A stretch of DNA of 40,967 bases from a virus. Below are positions 26,432-37,560 of this stretch, one piece after another. The notes below the pieces were generated by a model. That model was not told where the DNA came from. It made no database searches and was given only the letters and a program-made list of their open reading frames with translations. Every line of letters begins with the position of its first letter. The stretch's first letter is position 1. Location: the IMG/VR virus record IMGVR_UViG_3300023223_001001, positions 1-40,967 of that record. One strand, given 5' to 3'. Both the position numbers and the translations under genes were made by a program.

Positions 26432-26571
26432 TCGACTCTACTCATTTAGTAAGGGTAGCACTAAAGAATTTATCAAAATCTCTCTTGACACAGGAAGATT
26501 ACCTTGTCTTGATTGGTCAATCTCATACAGATGATTCTCTTCTTAGTTCTTTGGAGGATTATAAGAAATGA
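26359..26571 (+). CDS. Small helical protein heading the early operon
   Basis: A 70-aa helical protein (MPVIKVEQKVLDLVEASLPS) that starts with GTG 26359, with AGAGGGG seven to eight bases upstream. The start lies inside a 16-bp long-range stem. It may be a DNA-binding or adaptor protein; not recognised. Its stop overlaps the next ATG (ATGA). Confidence 0.6.
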   Translation: MPVIKVEQKVLDLVEASLPSTGTKIDSTHLVRVALKNLSKSLLTQEDYLVLIGQSHTDDSLLSSLEDYKK

Positions 26572-26798
26572 AAAAGAAAGAATTTTCCCATATCAGACTA
26601 ACTAGCCAATCCATTCGTGGTAACTACTTTGGAGCTTACGAATCCTCAGATGAAAACGCCAAGATGGGTTATCAGATTTTTATTTCAACTACTAAAGATG
26701 TTCACAGTACCTGTGAATGTATGGGATACGTACACGGTAAGGAGTGCTATCATTTGAAATCAGCTAAAGATTTGGAGGCTATCCTTTTTGTCAAATAA
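26568..26798 (+). CDS. SWIM-type zinc-finger protein
   Basis: A 76-aa protein with STCECMGYVHGKECYHLKSA near the C-terminus, a CxC...CxH pattern characteristic of SWIM zinc fingers, which bind DNA or protein in archaea and viruses. Coupled to the preceding gene by ATGA; its last ten bases overlap the next gene's TTG start. Confidence 0.75.
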   Translation: MKKKEFSHIRLTSQSIRGNYFGAYESSDENAKMGYQIFISTTKDVHSTCECMGYVHGKECYHLKSAKDLEAILFVK

Positions 26799-27198
26799 TT
26801 TTGTCGAGCAACCAACCAAAGAAGGAGAGGCTAAAGACTGTCCTAACTGTGGAAAACCTCTAGTAGCTCGACTCAAAGTTTACAAGGATTGGCCAGATAA
26901 AGTAATTTGGCAGAATAAAGAAGATACAGAAGCTCACTACACTAAAGATGGTAACTGTAAAGGAGAAACTCCCAAAGAGGAACCAAAACCAGACAATAAA
27001 AAACAAACTGAACTTCCAAAAGATGCCACTCTGTCAGTAGAACATGAACGCATAATTTCAACCAAAGCTCGTTTGTTATGGAGAATTAGATTACAAGTAG
27101 AGGCTACTATCAAAGCTCTAGAATCGGATCCAAATGGTGGCATGATTTGGGAAATGACCAAAATTATCTATCAAGAATTGTATGGAGATAAAAAATGA
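26788..27198 (+). CDS. Zinc-ribbon protein with helical C-terminus
   Basis: A 136-aa protein starting at TTG 26788. Residues 18-62 include CPNCGKPLVARL and a distant His/Cys (AHYTKDGNCKG), forming one zinc site. A Lys/Pro linker follows and a helical C-terminal half (RIISTKARLLWRIRLQVEAT). The layout resembles single-strand or template-binding accessory proteins, but no family is recognised. Start overlaps the SWIM gene by 11 bases. Confidence 0.65.
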   Translation: MSNNFVEQPTKEGEAKDCPNCGKPLVARLKVYKDWPDKVIWQNKEDTEAHYTKDGNCKGETPKEEPKPDNKKQTELPKDATLSVEHERIISTKARLLWRIRLQVEATIKALESDPNGGMIWEMTKIIYQELYGDKK

Positions 27199-27452
27199 TG
27201 AGTGTTGATACTTCTCTAGATGCTTGGTCTAAAGTAATGGATGAACTACCAACAAGACAAAAACAGGTACTACGTGCTATTACAAAACACCCAGATCATA
27301 CTAATAATGAACTCTCTAAAATTCTAGGGATTCCTCTACAGTCAGTCACTCCCAGAACTGGAGAATTACTAGCTCTAAACTTAATCAAAAGAGTAGAGAA
27401 AAGAGCTTGTGCAGTAACAGGAGGCAGCTCTTGGACATGGAGTGTAGTCTAA
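27195..27452 (+). CDS. Winged-helix DNA-binding protein
   Basis: An 85-aa protein: PTRQKQVLRAITKHPDHTNN then ELSKILGIPLQSVTPRTGEL is a helix-turn-helix with the recognition helix at about 48-62, followed by a wing (RVEKRACAVTGGSSWTW). Such stand-alone winged helices act as replication or transcription regulators. Two ATGs in tandem; the first overlaps the previous stop. Confidence 0.75.
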   Translation: MMSVDTSLDAWSKVMDELPTRQKQVLRAITKHPDHTNNELSKILGIPLQSVTPRTGELLALNLIKRVEKRACAVTGGSSWTWSVV

Positions 27453-27549
27453 TGTTATATGTAGGAATTCTAGCGTGGCACGACTATAATCATGTTAAAT
27501 TAATTTTCTTTAATTATGGATGTGTAGTTTGTGGTATGGACCTCTAACT

Positions 27550-27753
27550 ATGACTAGATCAATTACTCTTAAGGAAGAACTAATCAAAAAATTAGGACTT
27601 AATTCTACTAATTTATCAGCTATTTTCTACGGAAGAATGGAAGAAAAGAAGAAACTCCGTGCTTTTGCTGAAAAAATTACAAAAACTCCTGATACTGTAC
27701 GAGTCTATACTCCTCTAACAGAAAAAAAAGAGAGAGAGAGAGAGAAACTTTGA
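27550..27753 (+). CDS. Small helix-turn-helix protein with Arg/Glu repeat tail
   Basis: A 67-aa protein; SITLKEELIKKLGLNSTNLS resembles an HTH. The C-terminus ends in alternating Glu-Arg encoded by a (GA)n tract. ATG 27550 is preferred over GTG 27520, which would add ten residues with no ribosome site. The 27453-27549 gap holds no other gene. Its TGA overlaps the next TTG. Confidence 0.55.
   Translation: MTRSITLKEELIKKLGLNSTNLSAIFYGRMEEKKKLRAFAEKITKTPDTVRVYTPLTEKKEREREKL
27730..27746 (+). repeat. (GA)n tract, partner of a (CT)n tract
   Basis: A run of alternating GA (about eight units) preceded by A8, at the 3' end of the HTH gene. It is complementary to the (CT)n run at 28081-28100, which is also flanked by T-rich sequence, so an RNA stem of about 24 bp could enclose the gene at 27750-27998. 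Confidence 0.7.
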
Positions 27754-27998
27754 ATCTTCGAGAAAAATTTCAAATAATGCGTAAAGTCATTATTACTCGT
27801 CAAGAGATAACTGAGACTGAATTTATTCTAGAATTAGATGATAAAGGGATAGGACAGGCTACTTATAATAAAATCAAAGTAGATTTTAGAATTAATGCCC
27901 TAAAAACAGGAATTCATTATGATAAAAAAGAAAAAACTTACAGAGTAGGCTCTAAACAAACCACTCTTTACAATACATTAGAGGAGAAATTGAATTGA
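27750..27998 (+). CDS. Small wHTH-like protein
   Basis: An 82-aa protein starting at TTG 27750 (overlapping TGA): EITETEFILELDDKGIGQAT then YNKIKVDFRINALKTGIHYD suggests a compact winged-helix. It is enclosed by complementary GA and CT tracts. Role unknown; a second DNA-binding protein directly after an HTH gene. Confidence 0.6.
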   Translation: MNLREKFQIMRKVIITRQEITETEFILELDDKGIGQATYNKIKVDFRINALKTGIHYDKKEKTYRVGSKQTTLYNTLEEKLN

Positions 27999-28118
27999 AT
28001 TTATTATTAATTAATAATATAATTTTTAATAATAATAATAATAATAATAAATTTTTTTTATTTTACTTTTTTTATTTTTCTTCTCTCTCTCTCTCTCTCT
28101 TTTTGGAAGGCAACACTC
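27999..28118 (+). repeat. Low-complexity spacer: (AAT)n, poly-T and (CT)n
   Basis: After the stop at 27998 come TTAATTAATAATA-type repeats, an (AAT)7-like run (28029-28050), a T-rich block and (CT)9 (28081-28100), then TTGGAAGGCAACACTC before the next ATG. No ORF is seen. A T-rich stretch could terminate transcription and an AT-rich TATA could restart it. Confidence 0.75.
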
Positions 28119-28496
28119 ATGAGTAACAAAGATTTTCCTGTTCCATCTATCTCTAATGAGGAAACAGTAGTAGGAGTACATAGTTCAGGAATTCAACTAG
28201 AGGAGGGAGCCAATACATCAAATAGTAGATACTATTGTAGTAACTGTAGAAAAAAAATCCATTGCTACGTCAAAGTGAATAGAGATACAAAGGAAGCCAA
28301 GGTTCATGTCACTTGCAAGGATAAGCTCTGTGAGTGTAAATGTAAAACTCACTACTCCTGTAAATCCTGCGGTTATCTGCATCCATACGGTCAAAAATGT
28401 GACAGAGAAGATACATTACCTACTCCAACTCCTGAACAAGATAAAAACTGGCAGAAACTTTTAGCTAGTTTTAACAAAGAGGATGAAAAAAAATGA
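28119..28496 (+). CDS. Cys-rich multi-zinc protein
   Basis: A 125-aa protein with at least ten Cys: YYCSNCRKKIHCYVKV, CKDKLCECKCKTHYSCKSCG and the closing YLHPYGQKC. Two or three zinc sites are likely. It is preceded by GGAAGG 12-16 bases before the ATG and opens a run of zinc microproteins. No enzyme motif. Confidence 0.7.
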   Translation: MSNKDFPVPSISNEETVVGVHSSGIQLEEGANTSNSRYYCSNCRKKIHCYVKVNRDTKEAKVHVTCKDKLCECKCKTHYSCKSCGYLHPYGQKCDREDTLPTPTPEQDKNWQKLLASFNKEDEKK

Positions 28497-28633
28497 TGTG
28501 TACTGACTGTATTCTACCTAACCAATTTACATCTCAATCTTGGACTCTAATGCAGGAGCACTACGGCAAAATCCATCCAGACATTAAGAATCCAGGCAAA
28601 TACTTTACAAAGAAGGCCAAGACCAAAAAATGA
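28493..28633 (+). CDS. C2H2-like zinc microprotein
   Basis: A 46-aa protein (MMCTDCILPNQFTSQSW then EHYGKIHPDI) with a CX2C and HX4-5H pair. Its first ATG overlaps the previous TGA (ATGATG) and its stop overlaps the next ATG. Probably a DNA- or RNA-binding finger. Confidence 0.65.
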   Translation: MMCTDCILPNQFTSQSWTLMQEHYGKIHPDIKNPGKYFTKKAKTKK

Positions 28634-28779
28634 CCACTTTACAAAAACATACAGGAGCAAGTAGCTTGAAAACAAAACAGATTCTAAAATGTGAGTTCTG
28701 TCCTTTCACTACTGAGAGTCCAATAGGGTTACGAGTACACAGAGGTAAACAACATGAAATAAAGAGGGATGGATTTTGA
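28630..28779 (+). CDS. Classical C2H2 zinc-finger microprotein
   Basis: A 49-aa protein with one complete C2H2 finger: CEFCPFTTESPIGLRVHRGK followed by QH, i.e. CX2CX12HX4H. This finger type is common in archaeal viruses and binds DNA. Coupled on both sides by 4-bp overlaps. Confidence 0.75.
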   Translation: MTTLQKHTGASSLKTKQILKCEFCPFTTESPIGLRVHRGKQHEIKRDGF

Positions 28780-29342
28780 ATTTCCCAGACAAGAAATATC
28801 AAATAATCTACGCTGACCTTCCTTTAACCTATAATGATAAAGCTCTGGCTGGAAATCGTGGAGCTGGCTGCAAATATGATTTGATGTCTGATGAAGAATT
28901 GATCAATCTTCCTGTCAAAGAAATAACTGATAAAAACTGTGTTTTGTTCCTATGGGCAACATTTCCAAAAATCCAATTATGCCTAGATTGCATAAAATCA
29001 TGGGGTTTTGAGTACAAAACAGTAGCCTTTGTGTGGGTAAAAAAGTCCATGAATGGAAGAAATTTTATGGGAATGGGTAGGTGGACTAGAGCAAATTCTG
29101 AAATTGTATTATTAGCAACTAAAGGAAAACCAAAAAGACTAGATGCAGGAATATCGCAAATCATAGATATGCCTGTTAGGGAACATTCAAAAAAACCAAA
29201 TATTGTACGTAATAAGATAATTCAACTCATGGGAGATCTACCTAGAATAGAACTATTCTCAAGAACTAGAGTACATGGATGGGACACCTTTGGAAACGAC
29301 GAAAAATTACAAAATCAACCATTGGAGTCATTCTTATCTTGA
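28776..29342 (+). CDS. MT-A70-family methyltransferase with altered catalytic motif
   Basis: A 188-aa protein from TTG 28776. The body follows MT-A70 adenine-N6 methyltransferases: N-terminal KYQIIYADLPLTYN, later VLFLWATFPKIQLCLDCIKS, WVKKSMNGRNFMGMGRWTRA and HSKKPNIVRNKIIQLMG then RIELFSRTRVHGWDTFGN. The catalytic motif that should read DPPW is DLPL (residues 14-17), so the Pro and Trp needed for base stacking are changed. All other family motifs are intact. It could be a variant enzyme, a substrate-binding partner, or inactive. Viral homologues usually methylate DNA to evade restriction. Confidence 0.75.
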   Translation: MNFPDKKYQIIYADLPLTYNDKALAGNRGAGCKYDLMSDEELINLPVKEITDKNCVLFLWATFPKIQLCLDCIKSWGFEYKTVAFVWVKKSMNGRNFMGMGRWTRANSEIVLLATKGKPKRLDAGISQIIDMPVREHSKKPNIVRNKIIQLMGDLPRIELFSRTRVHGWDTFGNDEKLQNQPLESFLS

Positions 29343-29542
29343 TTTGTAAAGGAATTTGCAGTAGATTTAAGGCTCGAAAACCAGCTAAAGGCGGATGGTA
29401 CATAAAAAATAAGAGGTGCCTGCATTGTGAAATATTTATAGTTGGAAGGGATAAAATACACTGCCCCTGCTGTGGGTCCCATATGCGAGGGTCACCAAGA
29501 AACAAAAAGTACAAGGCTCAATTACGAGGAATAATAAACTGA
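29339..29542 (+). CDS. Zinc protein of a Nitrososphaeria-type family
   Basis: A 67-aa protein starting at TTG 29339 (overlapping TGA): ICKGICSRFKARKPAKGGWY then KRCLHCEIFI and CPCCGSHMRGSPRNKKYK. I recognise the CPCCG-x-RxxPRNKKYK ending as a family widespread in ammonia-oxidising archaea, which supports the host call. The longer frame from 29279 overlaps the methyltransferase and is not used. Function unknown. Confidence 0.7.
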   Translation: MICKGICSRFKARKPAKGGWYIKNKRCLHCEIFIVGRDKIHCPCCGSHMRGSPRNKKYKAQLRGIIN

Positions 29543-29946
29543 GTTTCATAGGCCGCGCTGAGCGAGAAGTAGAAACTATTCTAACCAGACTATTACTTCC
29601 TGATCTAATTAGAACTCAAGTTCCATTAACTGCACTAATAGATTATTCAGAATATACTACACTACGAGAAGAAGTTCAAAAACATAATTTCGACATGGTG
29701 ATATTCAGGAGAAACAAACCTCACCTGATTGTTGAGATAAATTTCAAACACGGAGAACAGGCAGCTAAAAAATGGCGAGAAATTTTTGAACCAATGCTAA
29801 AAAGATACAAACATGATATTCTACTAATCCAAGATTACGAATGTGACTATCTATTCAAGCCAGAAGACTATACCAAACATGTCTTATCCTGGAATGATGT
29901 GTTAGATGTTTGTAATGCACTAAAACTATCAAAAATATCCATTTAA
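29539..29946 (+). CDS. PD-(D/E)XK-like nuclease with CTG start
   Basis: 135 aa from CTG 29539: (M)SFIGRAEREVETILTRLLL, then HNFDMVIFRRNKPHLIVEIN followed by FKHGEQAAKKW. The Asp...Glu-x-Asn arrangement (D then VEIN) plus downstream basic helix is the PD-(D/E)XK nuclease pattern, with Asn replacing Lys. The first ATG in frame is at 29695 and would cut off the whole N-terminal domain. CTG overlaps the preceding TGA exactly as ATG and TTG do elsewhere in this operon. Possible restriction, resolvase or repair role. Confidence 0.6.
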   Translation: MSFIGRAEREVETILTRLLLPDLIRTQVPLTALIDYSEYTTLREEVQKHNFDMVIFRRNKPHLIVEINFKHGEQAAKKWREIFEPMLKRYKHDILLIQDYECDYLFKPEDYTKHVLSWNDVLDVCNALKLSKISI

Positions 29947-29987
29947 TTACTAGTATTTTTTACTAAAATCAACGGTTCAACTCCCTG

Positions 29988-30039
29988 GTAGCCGAGAGCA
30001 TACACCATCATAACGCGTTTTGATGTAGGTATGGGCTAC
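29988..30039 (+). ncRNA. Multi-segment hairpin in an intergenic gap
   Basis: Arms pair as GTAGCC/GGCTAC (29988-29993 with 30034-30039), CATAC/GTATG (29999-30003 with 30029-30033) and CATCA/TGATG (30006-30010 with 30021-30025), capped by AACGCGTT. A 5-nt bulge (GAGAG) separates the first two stems. No ORF covers it. It could be a small RNA, a processed leader or an attenuator. Confidence 0.5.
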
Positions 30040-30099
30040 TTTACATTCAAAATATGTTTTTACATCGTTGGCAAAAAGGCATAAAATACCACACATTCT

Positions 30100-30117
30100 T
30101 ATACCAGTATTGGTATA
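30100..30117. promoter_or_regulatory. Operator-like palindrome before 30125
   Basis: TATACCA-GTAT-TGGTATA, a perfect 7-bp inverted repeat with a 4-bp spacer, ends eight bases before the ATG at 30125. A TATA-like ATAAAATACC lies 10-20 bp further upstream (30080-30090). It would block an internal promoter of the operon when bound. Confidence 0.55.
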
Positions 30118-30124
30118 GAAAACC

Positions 30125-30262
30125 ATGAAATTACAATTATTCATATGTGAAGAAACTCTAAAAGGGAAACCTTGTGGAAATGAGTTCTCTTCCAAAAAAG
30201 ACCCAAAATCTAAAAAAATAGCCGATAGGCCACGGTGTAGTAAATGCGGAAAGAGAGTATGA
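30125..30262 (+). CDS. Zinc-ribbon microprotein
   Basis: A 45-aa basic protein with LFICEETLKGKPCGNEF and RCSKCGKRV, four Cys for one zinc. First gene after the hairpin and palindrome, so probably the head of a sub-operon. A Lys/Ser linker separates the knuckles. Confidence 0.65.
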   Translation: MKLQLFICEETLKGKPCGNEFSSKKDPKSKKIADRPRCSKCGKRV

Positions 30263-30302
30263 ACTCTACAAATAATCTAGAGTGTTTAGCGAGGCGTGAA
30301 TT

Positions 30303-30422
30303 ATGATTGTACCTGTTTGTTTTAATCCTAATTGTGCTGAAATGGAAACATCTGTAGATGGATATTGTTCTAATTCTTGTAAAAAAGAACATAAAATTAT
30401 TCTTGAGGATGATGAACAATGA
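30303..30422 (+). CDS. Zinc microprotein
   Basis: A 39-aa protein (PVCFNPNCAEME then YCSNSCKKEHKI) with CX4C and CX3C pairs, reminiscent of the FCS/MYM-type knuckle. Overlaps the next ATG (ATGA). Confidence 0.6.
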   Translation: MIVPVCFNPNCAEMETSVDGYCSNSCKKEHKIILEDDEQ

Positions 30423-30514
30423 CCAAAGTAAAACTCGGTAAAATTAGAGATTTCGTAACAAGGTTATTTCACCCAAGACATTTTGATTATAATTATGCAG
30501 GAGAACAATCATGA
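30419..30514 (+). CDS. Tiny basic protein
   Basis: 31 aa, MTKVKLGKIRDFVTRLFHPR then HFDYNYAGEQS. No Cys. A basic amphipathic helix in the first half. Coupled by ATGA on both sides; supported mainly by this overlap pattern. Confidence 0.5.
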   Translation: MTKVKLGKIRDFVTRLFHPRHFDYNYAGEQS

Positions 30515-30651
30515 AAGAACGTTTTTCGATGCCTGAATATTTTGATTTAGAAACTACATGTGCAAGTTGTGAAACTAGAACCAAAAAGAAAACTGAATTG
30601 GTTTGTGATTACTGCCATGAAAACGAGTTAAAACCTGAGGTATTAGAATAA
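30511..30651 (+). CDS. Zinc-ribbon microprotein
   Basis: A 46-aa protein with CASCETRTKKKTELVCDYCH, a compact CX2C-X12-CX2C ribbon. Its stop overlaps the next start (TAATG). Confidence 0.65.
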   Translation: MKERFSMPEYFDLETTCASCETRTKKKTELVCDYCHENELKPEVLE

Positions 30652-30758
30652 TGTCTAGTCATTGTATGTTTATCTGCCAAAACTGTGGCAACATAATAAA
30701 ATCAAATACACGACAACATTATCAAAGAGATTGTATTTTTACGGTGAGAATATCATGA
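30651..30758 (+). CDS. Zinc microprotein (C2HC-like)
   Basis: A 35-aa protein, HCMFICQNCGNIIKSNTRQH then YQRDC, fitting a CX2C-X9-HX4C knuckle. Start and stop each overlap neighbours. Confidence 0.6.
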   Translation: MSSHCMFICQNCGNIIKSNTRQHYQRDCIFTVRIS

Positions 30759-30868
30759 CTGGTGAAACAAAATTGAATGGAAGTTGTTCTGCATGTGGAA
30801 ATGCAATTTATGTTTATAATTCTGTCAAAGTTGGTAAGTGTTTCAGATGCAGAGGTAAGCAAAATTGA
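30755..30868 (+). CDS. Zinc-ribbon microprotein
   Basis: A 37-aa protein with CSACGNAIYVYNSVKVGKCF followed by RC, a minimal zinc ribbon. The ATG at 30755 overlaps the previous TGA; a longer frame from 30662 runs through the preceding gene and is rejected. Confidence 0.65.
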   Translation: MTGETKLNGSCSACGNAIYVYNSVKVGKCFRCRGKQN

Positions 30869-31119
30869 ATAACGGTTTAACGGAAGACAATGTAACTGTA
30901 GTTCCATTTGATGATTATCAAGATAATGACAATGTTACTATTTATTCTAATCATCCCGAACAATTCAAACAACAAATCCTAAACAATCAGGCAATAGTAG
31001 AGAAAATCAAAATTATTTTTGATGATGGAAGTGTAGATGATGATACATTTTTTCCAAAACTAGAGAAGATTCTAGACACTACAGATCATTCAGAATGTCC
31101 AACGGAGTCTAAATCATGA
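30865..31119 (+). CDS. Acidic hypothetical protein
   Basis: An 84-aa strongly acidic protein starting at TTG 30865 (overlapping TGA), with runs such as FDDYQDNDNV and FDDGSVDDDTFFP. No Cys pair. An acidic DNA-mimic or inhibitor is conceivable but unproven. Confidence 0.55.
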   Translation: MNNGLTEDNVTVVPFDDYQDNDNVTIYSNHPEQFKQQILNNQAIVEKIKIIFDDGSVDDDTFFPKLEKILDTTDHSECPTESKS

Positions 31120-31310
31120 GTGAGTGTATTTTACCCGAAGACCAATTGGCAAGAATTGAAGATAATTCTCATGAATCTACATTATGGTATTGTGATTTTT
31201 GTTCCAATTGGTTTGAAAATAAAGAAGATTTAACCAAACATTATATTTTTCCAGATGGAGAACAAGGTGAAATTTATTGCGACCATAGTGCAGGGAGTAA
31301 AACAGCATGA
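31116..31310 (+). CDS. Zinc-finger microprotein
   Basis: A 64-aa protein with WYCDFCSNWFENKEDLTKHY (CX2C-X12-H, C2H2-like) and a later YCDHS. Coupled to both neighbours by ATGA. Confidence 0.65.
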   Translation: MSECILPEDQLARIEDNSHESTLWYCDFCSNWFENKEDLTKHYIFPDGEQGEIYCDHSAGSKTA

Positions 31311-31534
31311 CTTGTGATTATTGTGAGATAATTGATGATGGTATTTTTCATGATAGATGTGGAAAAGATGAAGATTATGAAATAATCGTAGATGCCCCTG
31401 ATGAATACACAGGGGATATTGATTCACCTTACATTTTTCATTCATGTGAAGAACATTATAAATTAAAAGATACTATCAGTTGGGGAATGGTAAAATCAAA
31501 TCATGAACAATTAGTGGAGTTAGATCAAGGTTGA
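31307..31534 (+). CDS. Cys/His acidic microprotein
   Basis: A 75-aa protein with MTCDYCEIIDDGIFHDRCG and later FHSCEEHYKL, giving two CX2-3C/H zinc pairs in an acidic background. Overlaps the previous stop by ATGA. A 22-bp gap with AAGGAG follows before the next gene. Confidence 0.6.
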   Translation: MTCDYCEIIDDGIFHDRCGKDEDYEIIVDAPDEYTGDIDSPYIFHSCEEHYKLKDTISWGMVKSNHEQLVELDQG

Positions 31535-31556
31535 CAGTACAAACAAGGAGTAAAGC

Positions 31557-31679
31557 ATGAAACCTGAGTGTCCTAAATGTGGATTTAAAGGAAAGACTCC
31601 AGAAGATGTTTTCAAACATAATTCCAAGAAACATCCCAACATGATTAATTTTGTAATAATGGAGAAGTTTAACGGATGA
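31557..31679 (+). CDS. C2H2 zinc-finger microprotein
   Basis: A 40-aa protein, ECPKCGFKGKTPEDVFKHNS then KKHP: CX2C-X12-HX4H. AAGGAG is seven to eight bases before the ATG. Stop overlaps a mini-cistron. Confidence 0.7.
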   Translation: MKPECPKCGFKGKTPEDVFKHNSKKHPNMINFVIMEKFNG

Positions 31680-31711
31680 CACTTTCAAACAAAGGTGATA
31701 CAAAGAAATGA
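31676..31711 (+). CDS. 11-codon coupler mini-cistron
   Basis: MTLSNKGDTKK, starting on the previous stop (ATGA) and ending ATGAATG on the next start. It carries no obvious function of its own and looks like a short relay that keeps ribosomes on the message. Confidence 0.35.
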   Translation: MTLSNKGDTKK

Positions 31712-31878
31712 ATGTAATTTGTGAAGATAATTTCAAATTCATGAAACATCTTGCTTACTTACAGTTGATAAAAGGACATGAAGATAATTTTGATTATGTA
31801 CACAAAGCATTATCAATAATAGAGAAAGAATATCCAGAATCAAAAAATACCAATAAAGAAGAAGGTGAAACGATATGA
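31708..31878 (+). CDS. Small helical protein
   Basis: A 56-aa protein (MNVICEDNFKFMKHLAYLQL then a Lys/Glu helix). One Cys only. Coupled at both ends by 4-bp overlaps. Function unknown. Confidence 0.55.
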   Translation: MNVICEDNFKFMKHLAYLQLIKGHEDNFDYVHKALSIIEKEYPESKNTNKEEGETI

Positions 31879-32123
31879 GTGAAGATACATTCCAATGGAT
31901 CTATACTATGTTACAAGGACAAAGAAAACTACATGATAAAATGAAAGAAAACCTAGAACAAAATAAACCTGTTTTAGTATATGAAGATCTAAAGCATTGT
32001 ATTAATTATGTAGATACAGAACTATCACAACTATTTCAATTAGCAGAAAAGCAAGGAATTAAGATAAAGACATTTCCTTACAAACCTCAAAAGACAAAAG
32101 AAGGTGAGGATAAACTGAAATGA
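31875..32123 (+). CDS. Small helical protein
   Basis: An 82-aa helical protein (TFQWIYTMLQGQRKLHDKMK, then a second helix and a basic tail), probably oligomeric. Coupled at both ends. Not recognised. Confidence 0.6.
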   Translation: MSEDTFQWIYTMLQGQRKLHDKMKENLEQNKPVLVYEDLKHCINYVDTELSQLFQLAEKQGIKIKTFPYKPQKTKEGEDKLK

Positions 32124-32278
32124 AGTTTAAAGTTGTATGTCCTAAATGTCTTAGAATTTATGAACAACCAATCCCATTGATTTCAAAAGAAAACACCATG
32201 AAATTCAAATGTGAGAAATGTGATATTGTGTTAGTTAGGTTTGAAAATACAGTTGAAGATGGAGGTAAAGTAGAATGA
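32120..32278 (+). CDS. Zinc-ribbon microprotein
   Basis: A 52-aa protein with VCPKCLRIYEQPIPLISKEN then FKCEKCDIVLVRF, a CX2C-X19-CX2C ribbon with flanking beta strands, as in transcription-factor-type ribbons. Resembles the protein at 36651. Confidence 0.7.
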   Translation: MKFKVVCPKCLRIYEQPIPLISKENTMKFKCEKCDIVLVRFENTVEDGGKVE

Positions 32279-32487
32279 AAGAATTAGAGTGGGAATGTGT
32301 TAGTTACGACAAAAATGGTAATCCCCAACTAGAAAGACCGTTTACAGAACTAGAAAATCTATGTCATACTTGCAGAATCCCATCACAAATTCCCTTAAAC
32401 TACAATAATGAATGTATGAAATGTTCCGCTAAAAGAAGAAAATCAGAACAATTGAGAAATATCAATAAAGAAGAAGATAAAGCATGA
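32275..32487 (+). CDS. Zinc-ribbon microprotein
   Basis: A 70-aa protein: LCHTCRIPSQIPLNYNNECM then KCSAKRRKSEQ, a CX2C-X15-CX2C ribbon followed by a basic tail. Coupled by ATGA overlaps. Confidence 0.65.
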   Translation: MKELEWECVSYDKNGNPQLERPFTELENLCHTCRIPSQIPLNYNNECMKCSAKRRKSEQLRNINKEEDKA

Positions 32488-32804
32488 CTTTGTTAGTTGT
32501 TACTTACAAATCATGCAAAGCTAATATCCTTCTAGATGATGATATTATATCAATTCAATATATTGGTAGTAATGAACAAGGTAAAGGCCATGCTAGAAAA
32601 TTAATTGAAAAAATAGAATCACTTGCAAAAAATAATAAAGTAAAAGAAATTTGGGTTCCAACTGTGGTTAGTGAAAAATTATCTATTTTGCTTAAACATA
32701 TGCAATACCAATATGTTAATTTTGGCATACATCCTATGATGCCCAACAGAGAAGATGTTATGGGTTATCAAAAAACACTTGAGATTGAGGGAAAAACGAT
32801 ATGA
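32484..32804 (+). CDS. GNAT-family acetyltransferase
   Basis: A 106-aa protein with the acetyl-CoA-binding signature of GNAT enzymes: NEQGKGHARKLIEKIESLA (Q-x-x-G-x-A type motif A) at about 31-48, preceded by beta strands and followed by KEIWVPTVVSEKLSILLKHM (motif B region). It is shorter than typical GNATs. Known roles include modification of proteins, small molecules or RNA; substrate unknown. Confidence 0.75.
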   Translation: MTLLVVTYKSCKANILLDDDIISIQYIGSNEQGKGHARKLIEKIESLAKNNKVKEIWVPTVVSEKLSILLKHMQYQYVNFGIHPMMPNREDVMGYQKTLEIEGKTI

Positions 32805-32911
32805 TCCCTCATTGTATTGATTGTAGTTTTCATTTACGAAAGATTACTACGTTGGGAGATTCTTGTCAGATTTACATCTGTATATGTGGTAAGAGGTATT
32901 TTGAAAAATGA
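32801..32911 (+). CDS. Zinc-ribbon microprotein
   Basis: A 36-aa protein, HCIDCSFHLRKITTLGDSCQ then IYICICGKRYF, with CX2C and CX1-3C pairs. Start overlaps the GNAT stop. Confidence 0.65.
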   Translation: MIPHCIDCSFHLRKITTLGDSCQIYICICGKRYFEK

Positions 32912-32949
32912 TCGTCGAAGATTTAGATTTACGAGGTAAGAAAGAATGA
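32908..32949 (+). CDS. 13-codon coupler mini-cistron
   Basis: MIVEDLDLRGKKE, starting on the preceding stop (ATGA) and ending on the next ATG (ATGA). It contains GAGGTAAGAAAGA, a possible ribosome site for the downstream gene. Probably a relay. Confidence 0.35.
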   Translation: MIVEDLDLRGKKE

Positions 32950-33260
32950 GATGTAAATTATGTACTAAAACACAACAGAAAACCAGAGGTAAGACTTGGG
33001 AACTATGGAGTATTTGTAAAAATTGTTTTACTGAAATTAAAAAATCTGATATTATTCCTGTTCGAAATAAATTAATTTCTGTGAATTGTTTATTCTGTCT
33101 GAAAACTATACCTGCAACTCCACAAGGAGGAAAAGCATTTTGTAATTCATATCATAGATCTGGTTATTACCACCGAAAAAAATCCAAAGAACTAGGAATA
33201 AATCAATGGAATCTCATGGCATTAAATGGTCAAAATACAGTCGAGGTTGATGACAGTTGA
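32946..33260 (+). CDS. Cys-rich protein with two or three zinc sites
   Basis: A 104-aa protein: CKLCTKTQQKTRGKTWELWS then ICKNC, and a second unit NCLFCLKTIPATPQGGKAFC followed by NSYHRSGYYHRKK. The second half resembles zinc-anchored HNH-like or Fcf2-type folds but lacks a clear HNH triad. Coupled to neighbours. Confidence 0.6.
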   Translation: MRCKLCTKTQQKTRGKTWELWSICKNCFTEIKKSDIIPVRNKLISVNCLFCLKTIPATPQGGKAFCNSYHRSGYYHRKKSKELGINQWNLMALNGQNTVEVDDS

Positions 33261-33472
33261 TATTATACAGAATACTTTGCATGTTAAGAAGAGATCATCA
33301 CTATCATGAAGAAGTTATGATTGATGAAAACACCACTAGAAATTATTGCAAGTGTGGTAAGTGGTTAGGATTTGATTGGTCATATATAGGGGGTTACAAG
33401 AAATCAATAAATAAAATTTCAGAACTAAAAAGAAAGCTAGAATGGTCGAATACCGATGAGGTTGATGGTTAA
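33257..33472 (+). CDS. Small zinc-like protein with helical tail
   Basis: A 71-aa protein from TTG 33257 (overlapping TGA): RRDHHYHEEVMIDE then YCKCGKWLGFDW, and a helical basic tail (SINKISELKRKLEW). Zinc site incomplete or shared (H..H..C-x-C). Confidence 0.55.
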   Translation: MILYRILCMLRRDHHYHEEVMIDENTTRNYCKCGKWLGFDWSYIGGYKKSINKISELKRKLEWSNTDEVDG

Positions 33473-33685
33473 ATGAGCCCTAAAGTTATCTTGTGTATGT
33501 TTGGTTGTGATGTTCATTTAGCACATAGATTAAAAAAAGGATATGATACAGGTTTGGAATACGAAACTGTGAATCTTAGATTAATGGAAGATGAAGTATT
33601 TTTAACTCCTAGTGAGGTATCTGAATTACGTGATTATTTGACAGACTGGCTTAACTGTAATACAAAAGGAGTAGAAGGGAAATGA
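33473..33685 (+). CDS. Small hypothetical protein
   Basis: A 70-aa protein (MSPKVILCMFGCDVHLAHRL then an acidic C-terminus). It immediately follows the previous stop (TAAATG) without overlap. Not recognised. Confidence 0.55.
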   Translation: MSPKVILCMFGCDVHLAHRLKKGYDTGLEYETVNLRLMEDEVFLTPSEVSELRDYLTDWLNCNTKGVEGK

Positions 33686-33924
33686 CGAAATTTAATTCTA
33701 AGGAGGCTGTATTTGAATTTGAAGAAAAATATAGAACATGCAGTGTTTGCCACACTCTTAGATGGGTTGAAGTAAAAAAATTCCAATGGCTACGAAAGTT
33801 ACTTGGCAGGAAAACCAAAATCTATCATGGATGCACTAAAATTCCTATTTTCTGTGAAAAGTGTAAAGGAGTAACTCATTACGGATGCTCATGTAATACA
33901 GTATCGAGGCATGATTTCAAATGA
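33682..33924 (+). CDS. Multi-Cys zinc protein
   Basis: An 80-aa protein: CSVCHTLRWVEVKKFQWL ... CTKIPIFCEKCKGVTHYGCS then CN. At least seven Cys, two zinc sites. Coupled on both sides. Confidence 0.65.
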   Translation: MTKFNSKEAVFEFEEKYRTCSVCHTLRWVEVKKFQWLRKLLGRKTKIYHGCTKIPIFCEKCKGVTHYGCSCNTVSRHDFK

Positions 33925-34013
33925 AATGTAAAAAGAAAGTTGTTGAGGGAAATCATGCTTACTGTATGTTACATGAGTATTGTAAGGAACACAAGGGGTA
34001 TCATAGAAAATGA
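33921..34013 (+). CDS. Cys/His microprotein
   Basis: A 30-aa protein, MKCKKKVVEGNHAYCMLHEY then CKEHKGYHRK, with C...C-x-x-H...C-x-x-H spacing suited to one zinc. Coupled by ATGA. Confidence 0.55.
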   Translation: MKCKKKVVEGNHAYCMLHEYCKEHKGYHRK

Positions 34014-34195
34014 CAGAAGTAATGTGTACTCATTGTAATGGTACAGGCAAAGTAAAACCAGGTGCAAAATTTACAGGTGCTTCAAGTCAATGTAAAGTGT
34101 GTGGATTTACTGCTTTGGGAAGTACACAAGTAAAACAATTCGAAAAGAGAGGTAATTTATGTCGTGAATGTTCAGGAGATTTTGACTACTCATGA
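34010..34195 (+). CDS. DnaJ-like zinc microprotein
   Basis: A 61-aa protein with CTHCNGTGKVKPGAKFTGAS then QCKVCGFTALG and LCRECSGDF. The CxxCxGxG-like start matches the DnaJ Cys-rich module in miniature. Coupled by ATGA. Confidence 0.7.
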   Translation: MTEVMCTHCNGTGKVKPGAKFTGASSQCKVCGFTALGSTQVKQFEKRGNLCRECSGDFDYS

Positions 34196-34281
34196 CATTT
34201 CAGCCAATACGTATCTACTACTTACGAGATAATTGTGATACTATCGCAAATACCAAATGGAGAATTGTATCTTATGACTAA
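34192..34281 (+). CDS. Tiny hypothetical protein
   Basis: 29 aa (MTFQPIRIYYLRDNCDTIAN). One Cys. It overlaps the next gene by eight bases. Supported only by the overlap style. Confidence 0.4.
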   Translation: MTFQPIRIYYLRDNCDTIANTKWRIVSYD

Positions 34282-34396
34282 TCAGCCAAAGTGTAATCAC
34301 TGTAAGTTACCGATTTCAATTAGAAACGCTAGTGGATTCTGTGACCACTTGTATTATCCGTTTAACTGTGATGTGTGTGAGGGTATGATTGAATGA
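34274..34396 (+). CDS. Zinc microprotein
   Basis: A 40-aa protein starting MTNQPKCNHCKLPISIRN then FCDHLY and FNCDVCEGMIE: CX2C-C-CX2C. Its MTNQ start parallels the MSNQ starts of the genes at 34650 and 34724. Confidence 0.6.
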   Translation: MTNQPKCNHCKLPISIRNASGFCDHLYYPFNCDVCEGMIE

Positions 34397-34518
34397 AAGA
34401 TATTACAAAAATAGTTTGTTCTACTTGTAATCAAACAATGAAAATAATGAATTATAGAACTTGGAAATGTGATTCATGTGGGTTTACTACAACAAACAAA
34501 GGAGATGAATTTCAATGA
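34393..34518 (+). CDS. Zinc-ribbon microprotein
   Basis: A 41-aa protein, IVCSTCNQTMKIMNYRTWKC then DSCGFTTTNKG: CX2C-X12-CX2C. A classical short zinc ribbon. Coupled by ATGA. Confidence 0.7.
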   Translation: MKDITKIVCSTCNQTMKIMNYRTWKCDSCGFTTTNKGDEFQ

Positions 34519-34649
34519 CAGTTCAGCCAAAGTGGTACGAGGCAAAATGCCAAGATTGTAACAAAGATTTAGGTCATGTTGGAGATGGTGAGTTTTTTGT
34601 TTGGGAAGATGAACCAATATGTGATGATTGTTATGGGGGCGTTAACTAA
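34515..34649 (+). CDS. Zinc microprotein
   Basis: A 44-aa protein, KCQDCNKDLGHVGDGEFFVW then CDDCYGG, CX2C-X19-CX2C, LIM-like half-site. The next gene begins on the base after the stop with CTG. Confidence 0.65.
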   Translation: MTVQPKWYEAKCQDCNKDLGHVGDGEFFVWEDEPICDDCYGGVN

Positions 34650-34727
34650 CTGTCTAATCAATATGGAGGTTATCCTATAACTTATCCTAGTAAAACAGTT
34701 TTACAAGATTGGGGGTTGACGAACTGA
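34650..34727 (+). CDS. Tiny protein with CTG start
   Basis: 25 aa, (M)SNQYGGYPITYPSKTVLQ. The frame begins with CTG directly after the previous TAA; no ATG, GTG or TTG precedes it in frame. The start CTG TCT AAT CAA parallels CTG AGT AAT CAA of the next gene. Its TGA overlaps the next CTG. Confidence 0.45.
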   Translation: MSNQYGGYPITYPSKTVLQDWGLTN

Positions 34728-34825
34728 GTAATCAAGATGTATGGAACTGTATTAAATGTGGTGCAGATACTAAAAATGAAGAAGAATATCTAAATCATGA
34801 TTGTCCTTACTGGAGTGAATTATGA
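34724..34825 (+). CDS. Zinc microprotein with CTG start
   Basis: 33 aa from CTG 34724: (M)SNQDVWNCIKCGADTKNEEE then YLNHDCPYW, a CX2C-X13-HX1C finger. CTG overlaps the TGA of the preceding frame in the same way that ATG does elsewhere. No other start could include the CIKC pair. Confidence 0.55.
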   Translation: MSNQDVWNCIKCGADTKNEEEYLNHDCPYWSEL

Positions 34826-34980
34826 AACAAGATAATCAAACGGGTAGGAGCCACATAGATTCAAGGGGTTTTACTGGATTCTTTACTTGTGATTGTAAAG
34901 AACACGCTTATCATTCAAACTGTAATAGCACTAATGCTAATTGCACGTGTCAACTAACCCAAAGGAGAGAGCGTTCTTGA
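34822..34980 (+). CDS. Cys-rich microprotein related to the N-terminus region of the PAPS-reductase gene
   Basis: A 52-aa protein with FFTCDCKEHAYHSNCNSTNA then NCTCQLTQRRERS. The last 30 bases (CAACTAACCCAAAGGAGAGA...) closely match 35617-35650 inside the PAPS-reductase-like gene, but with a one-base difference that creates the stop here. The two loci share a duplicated module. Confidence 0.6.
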   Translation: MKQDNQTGRSHIDSRGFTGFFTCDCKEHAYHSNCNSTNANCTCQLTQRRERS

Positions 34981-34982
34981 AG

Positions 34983-35031
34983 TGCTATAATATAGCAATC
35001 TATATTAACAAGGAGTTGCTATAATATAGCA
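34983..35031. promoter_or_regulatory. Twin palindromes TGCTATAATATAGCA
   Basis: The 15-bp perfect inverted repeat TGCTATA-A-TATAGCA occurs at 34983-34997 and again at 35017-35031, 34 bp apart (about three helical turns). The second copy ends on the A of the ATG at 35031, and AAGGAG lies between the copies. This looks like a two-site operator over an internal promoter or ribosome site. Confidence 0.65.
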
Positions 35032-35159
35032 TGAATACAACAAATTGTCAAGTTTGCTTTGAAGAAATGAAAAGCGACGAAACATTTACTATGAATCCTG
35101 AAGGTTGTTTGTGCCACCTTGGATGTAGTAAAAAAACAAGAAAAGAGGCTGAGAACTGA
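35031..35159 (+). CDS. Zinc microprotein under the twin palindromes
   Basis: A 42-aa protein, NCQVCFEEMKSDETFTMNPE then GCLCHLGCSKKTRK: CX2C...CX1CX3C. First gene after the twin operator. Stop overlaps the next start (TGATG). Confidence 0.65.
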   Translation: MNTTNCQVCFEEMKSDETFTMNPEGCLCHLGCSKKTRKEAEN

Positions 35160-35332
35160 TGCCTTGTAAATGTGATGCCTGTCAAGCAGGTCGTTCAAGT
35201 TCAGAAACACTTTGTTTTCTTGCAGGTTGTTTTGATGTTGTGCAGCAGTCAGGAGTATGCCACGACCATTATGAAAATGGCTTTGCATACGATAGAACTG
35301 AACCTGTGGACAGTGAGGGAATGAAACTATGA
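35159..35332 (+). CDS. Cys-rich microprotein
   Basis: A 57-aa protein with CKCDACQAGRSSSETLCFLA then GCFDVV and VCHDHYENG. Six Cys and two His could bind two zincs. Coupled on both sides. Confidence 0.6.
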   Translation: MPCKCDACQAGRSSSETLCFLAGCFDVVQQSGVCHDHYENGFAYDRTEPVDSEGMKL

Positions 35333-35424
35333 CCATCAAATACTGTAGAATCTGCTTGATTCAAGAAAATGTACAGGTGATTAAAGATGGCCTTTGTCCT
35401 GACCATGAGGAATATGATGACTAA
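35329..35424 (+). CDS. Zinc microprotein
   Basis: 31 aa, KYCRICLIQENVQVIKDGLC then PDHEEYDD: CX2C-X15-CX2H. Coupled by ATGA and overlapping the next gene by eight bases. Confidence 0.6.
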   Translation: MTIKYCRICLIQENVQVIKDGLCPDHEEYDD

Positions 35425-35530
35425 TTATTTCCTATTCTCATGTAAATGCGGACATTACTTTATCGGTAAAAAAATCAAAGGTGCTTGTTCTAAATGCTAT
35501 GCTAGATTTGAGGGTGAAAAGTTAAAATGA
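35417..35530 (+). CDS. Zinc-ribbon microprotein
   Basis: 37 aa from the second of two tandem ATGs (the first is 35414): FSCKCGHYFIGKKIKGACSK then CYARFEG, CX1C-X14-CX2C. Stop overlaps the PAPS-reductase-like start. Confidence 0.6.
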   Translation: MTNYFLFSCKCGHYFIGKKIKGACSKCYARFEGEKLK

Positions 35531-36318
35531 AACTTTATGCTTGTTGTCAACATTGTTTTCCTGAAGTTGGAATGTGTCCTCATAAACATTGGTATCCTTG
35601 TATGACTTGTAGTACTCCTCAAGTAACCGAAAAGGAGAGATCGTTCTTGAGTAAATATATCGTATCTTATGGTGGTGGTGTAGATTCTACTGCTATGATT
35701 TTCAAATTAGTAGAGGATAAAGCACCATTAGATTATGTAGTGTTTGCAGATACAGGTAACGAACACCCTGAAACCTATTTCTTTGTAAATAATTACATGA
35801 AACCATACTTAGAATCAAAAAATATTCCTTTTACAATCGTCTATCCATTCAAGAAACGTTCCTTATGGAGTAGGTGTTTTCAGCGTAAAGTCATTCCTGA
35901 TATGTTGCAAAGATGGTGTACTAGAGATGTAAAAGTAAAACCAATACACAAATTTTACAAGACTCTCAAATCAGATATTGTACAATATATGGGGATTGAT
36001 TATCAAGAATCTCATAGAATAAAACCAAGTGGTCAAGATTGGATTACTAATTCCTATCCATTAGTTGATAACAAAATGAATCGTGACGATTGTGTTAGTT
36101 TAATTGAATCTTTAGGCTTCCCTATACCTGTAAAAAGTGGATGTTTCTTTTGTCCATACAATAACAAAGCCCGATGGGTTGATATTCGAGATAACTATCC
36201 TGCACTTTACAAATTATCAGAAATGTTGGCAGATAATAACAAACATAAAAATCAAAAATTGATTAGATTAACTGAAAAAGACGAAACTAATCTTTGTGAT
36301 GGGGTATGTATGACTTGA
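35527..36318 (+). CDS. PAPS-reductase-like ATP-pyrophosphatase with N-terminal zinc module
   Basis: A 263-aa protein. Residues 1-40 are a Cys/His module (CCQHCFPEVGMCPHKHW then CMTC). From about 41 it is an adenine-nucleotide alpha-hydrolase: VSYGGGVDSTAMIF is the PP-loop (SGGxDS type), FADTGNEHPE is the second conserved strand, RWCTRDVKVKPIHKF and SGCFFCPYNNKARW are hallmark motifs of viral PAPS-reductase-like proteins. TTG 35647, seven bases after AAAAGGAGAG, could start a short form lacking the zinc module. In viruses such proteins are associated with DNA modification or defence evasion; the substrate is unknown. Confidence 0.85.
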   Translation: MKLYACCQHCFPEVGMCPHKHWYPCMTCSTPQVTEKERSFLSKYIVSYGGGVDSTAMIFKLVEDKAPLDYVVFADTGNEHPETYFFVNNYMKPYLESKNIPFTIVYPFKKRSLWSRCFQRKVIPDMLQRWCTRDVKVKPIHKFYKTLKSDIVQYMGIDYQESHRIKPSGQDWITNSYPLVDNKMNRDDCVSLIESLGFPIPVKSGCFFCPYNNKARWVDIRDNYPALYKLSEMLADNNKHKNQKLIRLTEKDETNLCDGVCMT

Positions 36319-36446
36319 TTAAAGACATCAAAGGTGGATATGAAGAAACTCTAAAGGGAGTAACTAAAACTTACAAATGGATTGAAGGCAGAGGATATAT
36401 CGAAATACCAAAGTGTAGTTTGGGAAAGGAGGAGGAAGTTAGTTGA
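36315..36446 (+). CDS. Small hypothetical protein
   Basis: 43 aa from TTG 36315 (overlapping TGA): MIKDIKGGYEETLKGVTKTY then GRGYIEIPKC. Possible small beta domain. Its GGAGGAGG-rich end supplies a ribosome site for the next gene. Not recognised. Confidence 0.55.
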   Translation: MIKDIKGGYEETLKGVTKTYKWIEGRGYIEIPKCSLGKEEEVS

Positions 36447-36616
36447 CGTACAAAACTAGGGATGGAAAACCCTATCCATATTGCAAAAGGTGCAAAGTGC
36501 GTGAGTTTGATATTACTCTCACATTTCATAAAGAATGTGGTAAACAATACACACGAAACCCAACATCTAACAAAAATAGCAGTAAATATGTTCAGGAGCA
36601 ATTAAAACGAATATGA
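36443..36616 (+). CDS. Zinc microprotein, basic
   Basis: 57 aa from TTG 36443 (overlapping TGA), with GGAGGA 6-11 bases upstream: YPYCKRCKVREFDITLTFHK then ECGKQYTRNP, CX2C-X11-HX2C. The basic tail suggests nucleic-acid binding. Confidence 0.6.
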   Translation: MTYKTRDGKPYPYCKRCKVREFDITLTFHKECGKQYTRNPTSNKNSSKYVQEQLKRI

Positions 36617-36651
36617 CTGAAATACGTAAGATTAAGGAGAATTCAAAATAA
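36613..36651 (+). CDS. 12-codon coupler mini-cistron
   Basis: MTEIRKIKENSK, starting on the previous stop (ATGA) and ending TAATG on the next start. It contains TAAGATTAAGGAGA, the ribosome site of the downstream gene. The mini-cistron at 36803 contains the same 14 bases, so these are related modules. Confidence 0.4.
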   Translation: MTEIRKIKENSK

Positions 36652-36806
36652 TGAAAATTAGAATAGTTTGCAGAAAGTGTTTTGATATTTATGAGATGCA
36701 AGTGCCTATCGTTGAGGAAGGTGTTGATGGAAAATTCTATCATGAAGCTTGTGGCGGATTACTATTCATGATGATTAGAGATAAAGGAGATAAGATTCAA
36801 CAATGA
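36651..36806 (+). CDS. Zinc-ribbon-like microprotein
   Basis: 51 aa, IRIVCRKCFDIYEMQVPIVE then FYHEACGGLLF: CX2C...HX2C, similar in plan to the 52-aa protein at 32120. TAAGGAGA lies eight bases before the ATG. Confidence 0.65.
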   Translation: MKIRIVCRKCFDIYEMQVPIVEEGVDGKFYHEACGGLLFMMIRDKGDKIQQ

Positions 36807-36844
36807 TTCTCAAATTACATAAGATTAAGGAGAGTAAAAATTGA
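36803..36844 (+). CDS. 13-codon coupler mini-cistron
   Basis: MILKLHKIKESKN, starting on the previous stop and ending with TTGA on the next start. It carries the same TAAGATTAAGGAGA segment as 36613-36651. Confidence 0.4.
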   Translation: MILKLHKIKESKN

Positions 36845-37068
36845 TTGAGTTTCTTATAACAAATTGGGTATTATTCACGATTATAGTTTTCATATTGACT
36901 TCCTCAACTTGTACTTGTTATCATGTGACCAGAAAAGATAGAATATTTACTGACACAAGAATACATGAACGATTTGATCCAGAAAGACAACTAAGAATAA
37001 TGTTAGGATTAGAGCCTGTTATTATTGCTAAACACTCGATTAAGAATATCAACGAGGTATCTGACTAA
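36841..37068 (+). CDS. Single-pass membrane protein
   Basis: 75 aa from TTG 36841: an N-terminal membrane helix (ITNWVLFTIIVFILTSSTC) and a charged cytoplasmic tail (RFDPERQLRIMLGLEPV). First membrane protein of the operon end. Stop overlaps the next ATG (TAATG). Confidence 0.6.
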   Translation: MIEFLITNWVLFTIIVFILTSSTCTCYHVTRKDRIFTDTRIHERFDPERQLRIMLGLEPVIIAKHSIKNINEVSD

Positions 37069-37373
37069 TGGAATTAGATAAACGCATTGAACAATATGAG
37101 GAACGACGTTGGATAGATTGTGCATGGGATGACATAAATGATGAGAAAGAATTTGAGTTAATTTTGACTTATCTCAAAGAAAACAAACAACTCAAACAGA
37201 AACTAGAGAAGACAGAGGAACTATGTAAGAGAATTAGATTAACTGGTATTCCTTCATGTATAGACGAACACACACAACATTTACACGTAAAATTAGAAGC
37301 AAAAATGGAACTAGTGATAGAGTTAGAAGAAATACTTGGCGAACAGGACCAGGAGGCGGTAAAGAATGAGTAG
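37068..37373 (+). CDS. Coiled-coil protein
   Basis: A 101-aa Glu/Lys-rich coiled coil (EFELILTYLKENKQLKQKLE and a second helix ending EEILGEQDQE). Probably dimerises; no catalytic residue pattern. AGGAGG near its end serves the next gene. Confidence 0.6.
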   Translation: MELDKRIEQYEERRWIDCAWDDINDEKEFELILTYLKENKQLKQKLEKTEELCKRIRLTGIPSCIDEHTQHLHVKLEAKMELVIELEEILGEQDQEAVKNE

Positions 37374-37560
37374 AGATGTTATACAAAGAAGTCTAGACGA
37401 ATATGATCCAACTGATTGCACCGAATGTGGAGAAAAGTTAGAAAATATCTCATATTATAACGGCTCTGGATATGGTTCTTTTTCATTTCCATATCACGGA
37501 CAATGTCTTAAAATAGTTCAAGCAAGACAGTCCCAACCAAATGTACAGGATAAGGAATGA
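37366..37560 (+). CDS. Zinc microprotein, last gene of the long operon
   Basis: A 64-aa protein with DCTECGEKLENISYYNG then YHGQCLKIVQ: CX2C-...-HX2C. Overlaps the previous gene by eight bases. It closes the 26.4-37.6 kb operon; a non-coding structured segment follows. Confidence 0.6.
   Translation: MSRDVIQRSLDEYDPTDCTECGEKLENISYYNGSGYGSFSFPYHGQCLKIVQARQSQPNVQDKE

Follow-up and report, generated by a model that had tools for sequence, protein, structure and literature searches.

The 40,967-bp virus record IMGVR_UViG_3300023223_001001 of IMG/VR, analysed here over its whole length (the window), carries at positions 26359-37560 a block of 50 co-directional genes on the + strand, with a coding density of 93%. 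By a strict zinc criterion (a CX2-4C motif, at least four Cys plus His residues and no more than 140 amino acids, aa), 31 of these genes encode zinc-type proteins (median ~50 aa), 27 of them of 80 aa or less. Four further products (26568, 33257, 33921 and 34822, genes being designated by their first position) are Cys/His-rich yet fall outside this criterion, and the ~19 non-zinc genes include a winged helix-turn-helix (wHTH) protein, an MT-A70 methylase, GNAT-like, PAPS-reductase-like and membrane proteins, and others. The terminase large subunit (PHROG match, E 4e-5) together with the order of capsid and tail genes assigns the virus, as judged from these genes, to the tailed viruses (Caudoviricetes).

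A previous reading of this DNA from the sequence alone (the sequence-only reading) had described the region as an 11-kb coupled operon of zinc microproteins joined head to tail by overlaps of 1-8 bases, at a density well beyond that usual in archaeal viruses. The extreme density is confirmed, and the coupling is indeed tight, since 28 of the 49 gene junctions are 4-nt overlaps (ATGA/TTGA) and three are 1-nt overlaps. However, 14 junctions show no overlap, gaps reach 178 nt and a T-rich, probably terminator-like stretch lies at 27998-28119, so that the single 11-kb operon was dropped as unproven; coupling is best from 30125 onwards (Table 1). Start sites are partly uncertain and two were corrected (29339 and 34274). 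The former, listed as 29279, really starts with TTG at 29339, in a TTGA overlap with the MT-A70 stop.

The genes of the block behave as true coding sequences. CxxC motifs with at least two knuckles are found in 27 of 68 + strand open reading frames (ORFs) vs 3 of 56 antisense ORFs of the same DNA, and a Shine-Dalgarno (SD) sequence of at least 4 nt precedes 38 of the 50 claimed starts vs 41 of 279 other ATGs (15%). Composition at codon position 3 equals that of the structural genes, and the score for synonymous codon choice is above zero in the coding frame and mostly below zero for the five alternative readings, apart from a single slightly positive antisense frame. An independent home-made gene caller recovered 49 of the 50 stops, the sole miss being a mis-started gene. 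Furthermore, the rate of non-synonymous differences (pN) was below the synonymous one (pS) in 50 of 54 pairs of homologous zinc proteins of the clade (≥55% identity); the other four were three self-comparisons and one recent tandem duplicate. Pairs inside one family are not independent, and 33921 and 34822 are the direct cases from the window. Stops in relatives and a lack of synonymous bias had been named in advance as signs against the block, and it withstood this test where homologues exist. All these data show that the block genes are real, selected, mostly of zinc type and coupled.

Densities were compared with one gene caller and one criterion, counting zinc proteins of up to 100 aa. The window holds 31 such microproteins, 28 of them within 11 kb, while 21 related virus records hold 2-21 each and at most 17 per 11 kb, these counts being lower bounds for the several records that are fragments. 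Of the unrelated viruses that share an MT-A70 gene, most show no more than ~1 per 10 kb and a few reach as many as 8 in 11 kb; genomic loci of Nitrososphaeria have 0.59 per 10 kb. The halovirus HF2 has 10 by this strict test (maximum 6 per 11 kb), with 18 CxxC proteins in 77.7 kb by plain annotation, and Hardycor1 has five (maximum 4). An enrichment in zinc microproteins marks the whole clade and extends to a second capsid lineage and to a contig binned to Nitrososphaeria, with the window as the extreme case.

The content of the block is replaced between related viruses while its character is kept, the library-like behaviour that had been proposed for it. The nearest full relative (G001), with a major capsid protein (MCP) 85% and a large terminase subunit (TerL) 87% identical to those of the window, shares 19 of the 27 structural genes of the window at a median identity of 71%, and just one of the 50 block genes, that of the 29339 family. 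No more than three of the 50 are common to any of eight relatives. Single-linkage clustering at 32 bits, a threshold calibrated on Cys/His-preserving shuffles, placed the zinc microproteins of 22 genomes in 238 clusters, 210 of them singletons; with three more viruses (25 genomes), 369 zinc proteins gave 267 families, and the family curve showed no plateau, with ~9 new families per added genome. Because those block genes that are not of zinc type turn over too, the replacement is regional and not specific to zinc proteins.

Members of the block evidently also move between virus lineages with different capsids. G233, in which the capsid protein of the window has no match, bears its own dense zinc block with homologues of wHTH 27195, MT-A70, 29339 and 33921, and the order in G020 is that of the window, wHTH being followed by a 28119 homologue and then by C2H2-like microproteins. 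Other accessory genes of the lineage-B viruses G234 and G235 are 68-78% identical to those of G001 and G002. The recurring part is a short skeleton (wHTH, 28119, MT-A70 and 29339), and the pattern of sharing fits a transfer of cassettes among viruses of ammonia-oxidising archaea (AOA).

The host was approached through the 29339 family, as the capsid protein, with ~50 relatives in viral contigs, has none in the genome set or among the named phages; the terminase of a close relative matched one named phage weakly. The best 80 genome hits of the 29339 family are all Nitrososphaeria, where the family has 1-6 copies per host (five genomes checked) and a core that hardly varies all the way from Nitrosocaldus to Nitrosopumilus. 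The viral protein has the invariant columns of this CKGIC/CPCCG zinc family (C3, C7, C27, C30, C42, C44, C45 and the M-x-C start, as M-x-CKGIC) and is 52-57% identical to the host protein, but it has diverged and lacks the C-terminal tail of the latter. By these marks 29339, the sole member of that family in the block, can be recognised as a copy, carried by the virus, of a zinc protein that is universal in the class of the host. The presence of this host-type protein suggests that at least one block member mimics a host factor. The family is covered by no Pfam or NCBIfam model. Its near-invariance across an archaeal class indicates that the host counterpart probably touches an essential, conserved machine. 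These best hits, confined to Nitrososphaeria, the archaeal RadA and PCNA encoded by relatives, and a contig binned to a Nitrososphaeria genome (L234) in which tail genes are followed by a zinc-microprotein operon of its own (assuming correct binning) make it highly probable that the host is an ammonia-oxidising archaeon of the Nitrososphaeria. In host genomes, the zinc protein (63-aa core nearly invariant across Nitrososphaeria; L177, L213 and L151, near 10001-10378) has further paralogues in most genomes checked and, in some, NAC-alpha-like and UbiD-like neighbours, names that come from reading the sequence. Three neighbouring copies of the family stand in G001 (L108, 3512-4125), one pair being very recent (synonymous divergence, dS, 0.07; non-synonymous divergence, dN, 0.10).

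Taken together, we consider it probable that the block, in a tailed virus of AOA, is an accessory arsenal that is directed at the host and shuffled horizontally. It would comprise microproteins of mixed and mostly unrelated kinds, each folding around one or two zinc ions, with zinc as a fold stabiliser in place of the hydrophobic core that a chain of 30-60 aa lacks. The genes would be read from a few long transcripts, and their translational coupling would give a similar output from each; the microproteins may be made together early in infection, acting singly as independent small binders on the machinery of the host for defence, transcription, translation or turnover. Their turnover could mirror an arms race combined with cassette exchange. 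More tentatively, and with somewhat less than even confidence, we propose that AOA tailed viruses of at least two capsid lineages have a dedicated hypervariable zinc-microprotein cassette, in which a short skeleton (wHTH, MT-A70 and the host-mimic CKGIC protein) would be accompanied by constantly exchanged one-domain zinc proteins serving as single-target inhibitors or mimics of host factors; zinc microproteins would then be the standard chemistry of host takeover and counter-defence in these viruses.

Several observations weigh against the idea of a host-directed arsenal. None of the microproteins reached a curated family cut-off (Pfam gathering scores), and their zinc binding is predicted from motifs; the timing and the molecular targets given above are likewise predictions. 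The mixture of finger types described in the sequence-only reading survives in part: four members match C2H2 (PF00096) below the gathering cut-off (best E 0.0016), DnaJ (best E 0.019), LIM and ribbon matches are likewise sub-threshold, and no SWIM or FCS family was among the matches listed (the best 25 of 65 sub-threshold Pfam families in one scan). PADLOC gave a weak Cas12f-like ribbon resemblance only. The sole structure model, of the 29339 family, is poor (pLDDT 66) and has no PDB match at E≤0.001, the best E of a PDB sequence search with this family being 0.02. Finally, for 29 of the 38 zinc proteins of the window genome no relative exists among 24 other virus genomes, so that the evidence of selection on such members comes only from codon phase, SD sequences and coupling. 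Two concatenations of window microproteins gave only three matches in 200 Nitrososphaeria genomes, of which one was a broken remnant (the second of these searches lacked a positive control), and neither five concatenated microproteins nor the PAPS-like protein matched any viral contig.

The microproteins could instead be chiefly nucleic-acid-binding regulators that switch host and viral transcription or RNA fate, with wHTH 27195 in the same circuit, a possibility that we regard as unlikely though worth attention. Modulation of host transcription or RNA had already been suggested from the sequence and is possible, nothing singling it out. The weak C2H2, ribbon and TNB-like resemblances, the place of wHTH genes in the semi-conserved start of the block and the slightly basic mean charge of the zinc proteins of the clade (+2.6) agree with it, and small zinc proteins are known to regulate genes in haloarchaea (Brz; PMC2253796), AFV1p06 being cited as another small zinc protein regulator in PMC7230728. 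However, net charges in the window range from -15 to +15, a mixed bag with ~10 clearly acidic members, and such varied charges and motifs speak against a single biochemical role. A fixed circuit would also be expected to keep its regulators, and the block members are not conserved.

Evolution by duplication had been put forward in the sequence-only reading. That the set grew in this way, from a few finger genes copied locally and diverging quickly, seems improbable to us. There is a clear paralogue pair in the window (32120/36651, 35.4 bits vs a maximum of 28.5 for Cys/His-preserving shuffles), relatives hold tandem 29339-family copies (G001, G008 and G010, one with the dS of 0.07), and the similarity of small proteins fades quickly, but no further in-window pair rises above the shuffled controls, and relatives of single members lie in otherwise different blocks, which transfer explains better. 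With a single in-window paralogue pair, duplication fails to account for the set, and so does a fixed complex. The latter, also proposed before, would make the block the subunits of one multi-protein machine held at fixed ratios by coupling, for which the many 4-nt overlaps speak; nevertheless, the set is not co-inherited, as the counts shared with G001 and the eight relatives show, and nothing beyond the four skeleton genes recurs, so that we give it very little credit. The idea that the ORFs are for the most part spurious or in decay, as the shortness of many and their lack of homologues might hint, is refuted for the block overall by strand asymmetry, codon phase, SD sequences, the gene caller, pN<pS and a 30-aa product 83% identical at a pS of 0.935, even if single genes could be wrong.

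An arsenal of this sort is not without parallels. Early and accessory regions of phages contain many small, poorly conserved host-directed or anti-defence genes. Like the block, they consist of small, co-directional and quickly replaced genes beside conserved structural modules, but their proteins are mostly non-zinc whereas about two thirds of the block is zinc-type. Cellular archaea have single-domain zinc microproteins too, yet these are scattered and conserved and form no viral operon. The known precedent lies in the haloviruses: those of the HF1 group are described as having many small CxxC proteins with no assigned function, encoded away from the assembly module (PMC7230728), and ten are reported for Hardycor1 (PMC7911831). 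The window has this same trait, as these and other tailed haloviruses are archaeal tailed viruses with many CxxC proteins <100 aa, often from overlapping genes, outside the virion module. Nevertheless, their density is lower (23 CxxC genes in Serpecor1, 14 of them <100 aa; 6 in HF2 and 4 in Hardycor1 vs 28 in the window per 11 kb), hosts and proteins are unrelated, and the window virus shows no replication genes. No halovirus homology was found in the phage collection with the capsid, terminase and 29339-family queries, the other microproteins not having been searched singly there. Zinc goes unmentioned in the main text of a survey of archaeal tailed viruses (PMC8651126), a paper on soil nitrifier viruses (PMC11849493) and a provirus survey (PMC11705971), and work on the integrated elements of Thaumarchaeota (PMC6563490) touches on it only in passing. 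Judged by these sources, the kind of protein is known; what is new is its density, the group of hosts and the turnover measured here. AOA viruses affect a key step of the nitrogen cycle, and the block bears on how they control their hosts: one genome supplies ~35 compact candidates that lend themselves to expression, and 25 genomes together supply ~270 families, around a short recurring skeleton.

As for the rest of the genome, the window has an exact 144-bp repeat at both ends, and terL begins near the right end and runs on from the left one; it is therefore a complete genome of ~40.8 kb. Packaging, head and tail genes occupy positions 1-21900, ~10 other genes 22-26 kb, and membrane and small genes 37.7-40 kb ahead of terL, the order of modules being judged from gene sizes and conservation in the clade. 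Portal and MCP matched no named family. In the proteins scanned, Pfam revealed no replication gene of any kind (polymerase, helicase, primase or other), which suggests a strong dependence on the host, and an Rfam scan gave no match. The zinc families 8582 and 1449, outside the block, are core and part of the virion module; their products are possibly virion assembly factors. An HNH endonuclease (14570-15022; PF13392, E 1.2e-12) amid the tail genes is probably a homing insertion.

Table 1. Coordinates of the accessory block, its genes and two zinc proteins of the virion module.
Feature	Position	Strand	Remarks
Accessory block of 50 genes in one direction, 31 of them for strict zinc microproteins	26359..37560	+	
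Best-coupled part of block, gaps ≤78 nt	30125..37560	+	From junction list
76-aa Cys/His protein (CxC, CxH)	26568..26798	+	SWIM-like spacing unconfirmed by Pfam; weak PHROG zinc-finger match
136-aa zinc protein, upstream of wHTH	26788..27198	+	Weak homologue in L233 (Nitrososphaeria genome)
Winged-HTH regulator candidate	27195..27452	+	PF13412 above cut-off; G233 and G020 have homologues at a corresponding position of their own zinc blocks
125-aa zinc protein, 10 Cys	28119..28496	+	Homologues in G020 and Nitrososphaeria-binned contig L234
46-aa C2H2-like microprotein	28493..28633	+	
49-aa C2H2-like microprotein	28630..28779	+	Sub-threshold zf-C2H2
MT-A70 family adenine methyltransferase	28776..29342	+	PF05063, E 1e-23
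67-aa viral copy of universal Nitrososphaeria zinc protein, TTG start	29339..29542	+	CKGIC...CxxC...CPCCG
45-aa zinc ribbon-like	30125..30262	+	Family present in several relatives
39-aa zinc microprotein	30303..30422	+	
46-aa zinc microprotein	30511..30651	+	Broken homologue in Nitrososphaeria genome contig L235
35-aa zinc microprotein	30651..30758	+	
37-aa two-CxxC ribbon	30755..30868	+	
64-aa zinc microprotein	31116..31310	+	
75-aa zinc microprotein, acidic	31307..31534	+	
40-aa C2H2-like microprotein	31557..31679	+	
52-aa two-CxxC ribbon, paralogue of 36651	32120..32278	+	
70-aa zinc microprotein	32275..32487	+	
GNAT-like acetyltransferase	32484..32804	+	Sub-threshold match
36-aa zinc microprotein	32801..32911	+	
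104-aa protein, 3 CxxC	32946..33260	+	Related to 1449 family
70-aa protein	33473..33685	+	Zinc-type by strict criterion via CX3C only
80-aa zinc microprotein	33682..33924	+	
30-aa Cys/His protein	33921..34013	+	83% identical in G008, 64% in G233; pN 0.089, pS 0.935
61-aa three-CxxC protein	34010..34195	+	DnaJ/anti-TRAP-like, sub-threshold
40-aa two-CxxC zinc microprotein	34274..34396	+	53 aa with GTG at 34235 as start
41-aa ribbon	34393..34518	+	Weakly Cas12f/TnpB TNB-like
44-aa LIM-like ribbon	34515..34649	+	Sub-threshold
38-aa zinc microprotein	34709..34825	+	
52-aa Cys/His protein	34822..34980	+	69% identical in G012; pN 0.142, pS 0.709
42-aa zinc microprotein	35031..35159	+	
57-aa zinc microprotein	35159..35332	+	
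31-aa zinc microprotein	35329..35424	+	
37-aa zinc microprotein	35417..35530	+	ATGACTAA overlap
PAPS-reductase-like protein	35527..36318	+	PF01507, E 1.4e-8
57-aa zinc microprotein	36443..36616	+	
51-aa zinc microprotein, paralogue of 32120	36651..36806	+	
64-aa zinc microprotein	37366..37560	+	
Clade-core zinc protein, outside block	8582..8797	+	Directly 3' of major capsid gene; 21/22 related genomes
Clade-core zinc protein, outside block	1449..1616	+	Between terL and next large head gene; 18/22 related genomes

Some minor features were also seen within the block. The 26788 product was compared with an equally placed 138-aa protein of G233, and no homology was found. The near-palindrome GCTATAATATAGC forms an operator-like direct repeat (34984-34996 and 35018-35030) around a short intergenic gap and an SD sequence; it is confined to this one gap, and allowing up to 2 mismatches brought out no other copy in the window. 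The end of gene 34822 (34961-34980) and the PAPS-reductase-like gene (35631-35650) share 20 nt at 95% identity, perhaps a recombination scar. Complementary GA/CT microsatellites (27722-27746 and 28081-28104), 334 nt apart, flank gene 27750 and the T-rich gap and could reflect RNA pairing or slippage. Among the relatives, G010 (IMGVR_UViG_3300028610_003763; L144, 1-2200) has a gene for a TIGR-Tas RNA-guided endonuclease (NF052498, 167 bits vs a cut-off of 100), 3' of which lies a regular array of 36-37 nt units with conserved edges (TGAAAACC and ACGAGTCA) and variable stretches of ~9 nt. TIGR-Tas systems thus appear to occur in tailed viruses of ammonia-oxidising archaea, and similarly spaced CGAGT arrays are present in four other relatives (L111, L117, L119 and L131).

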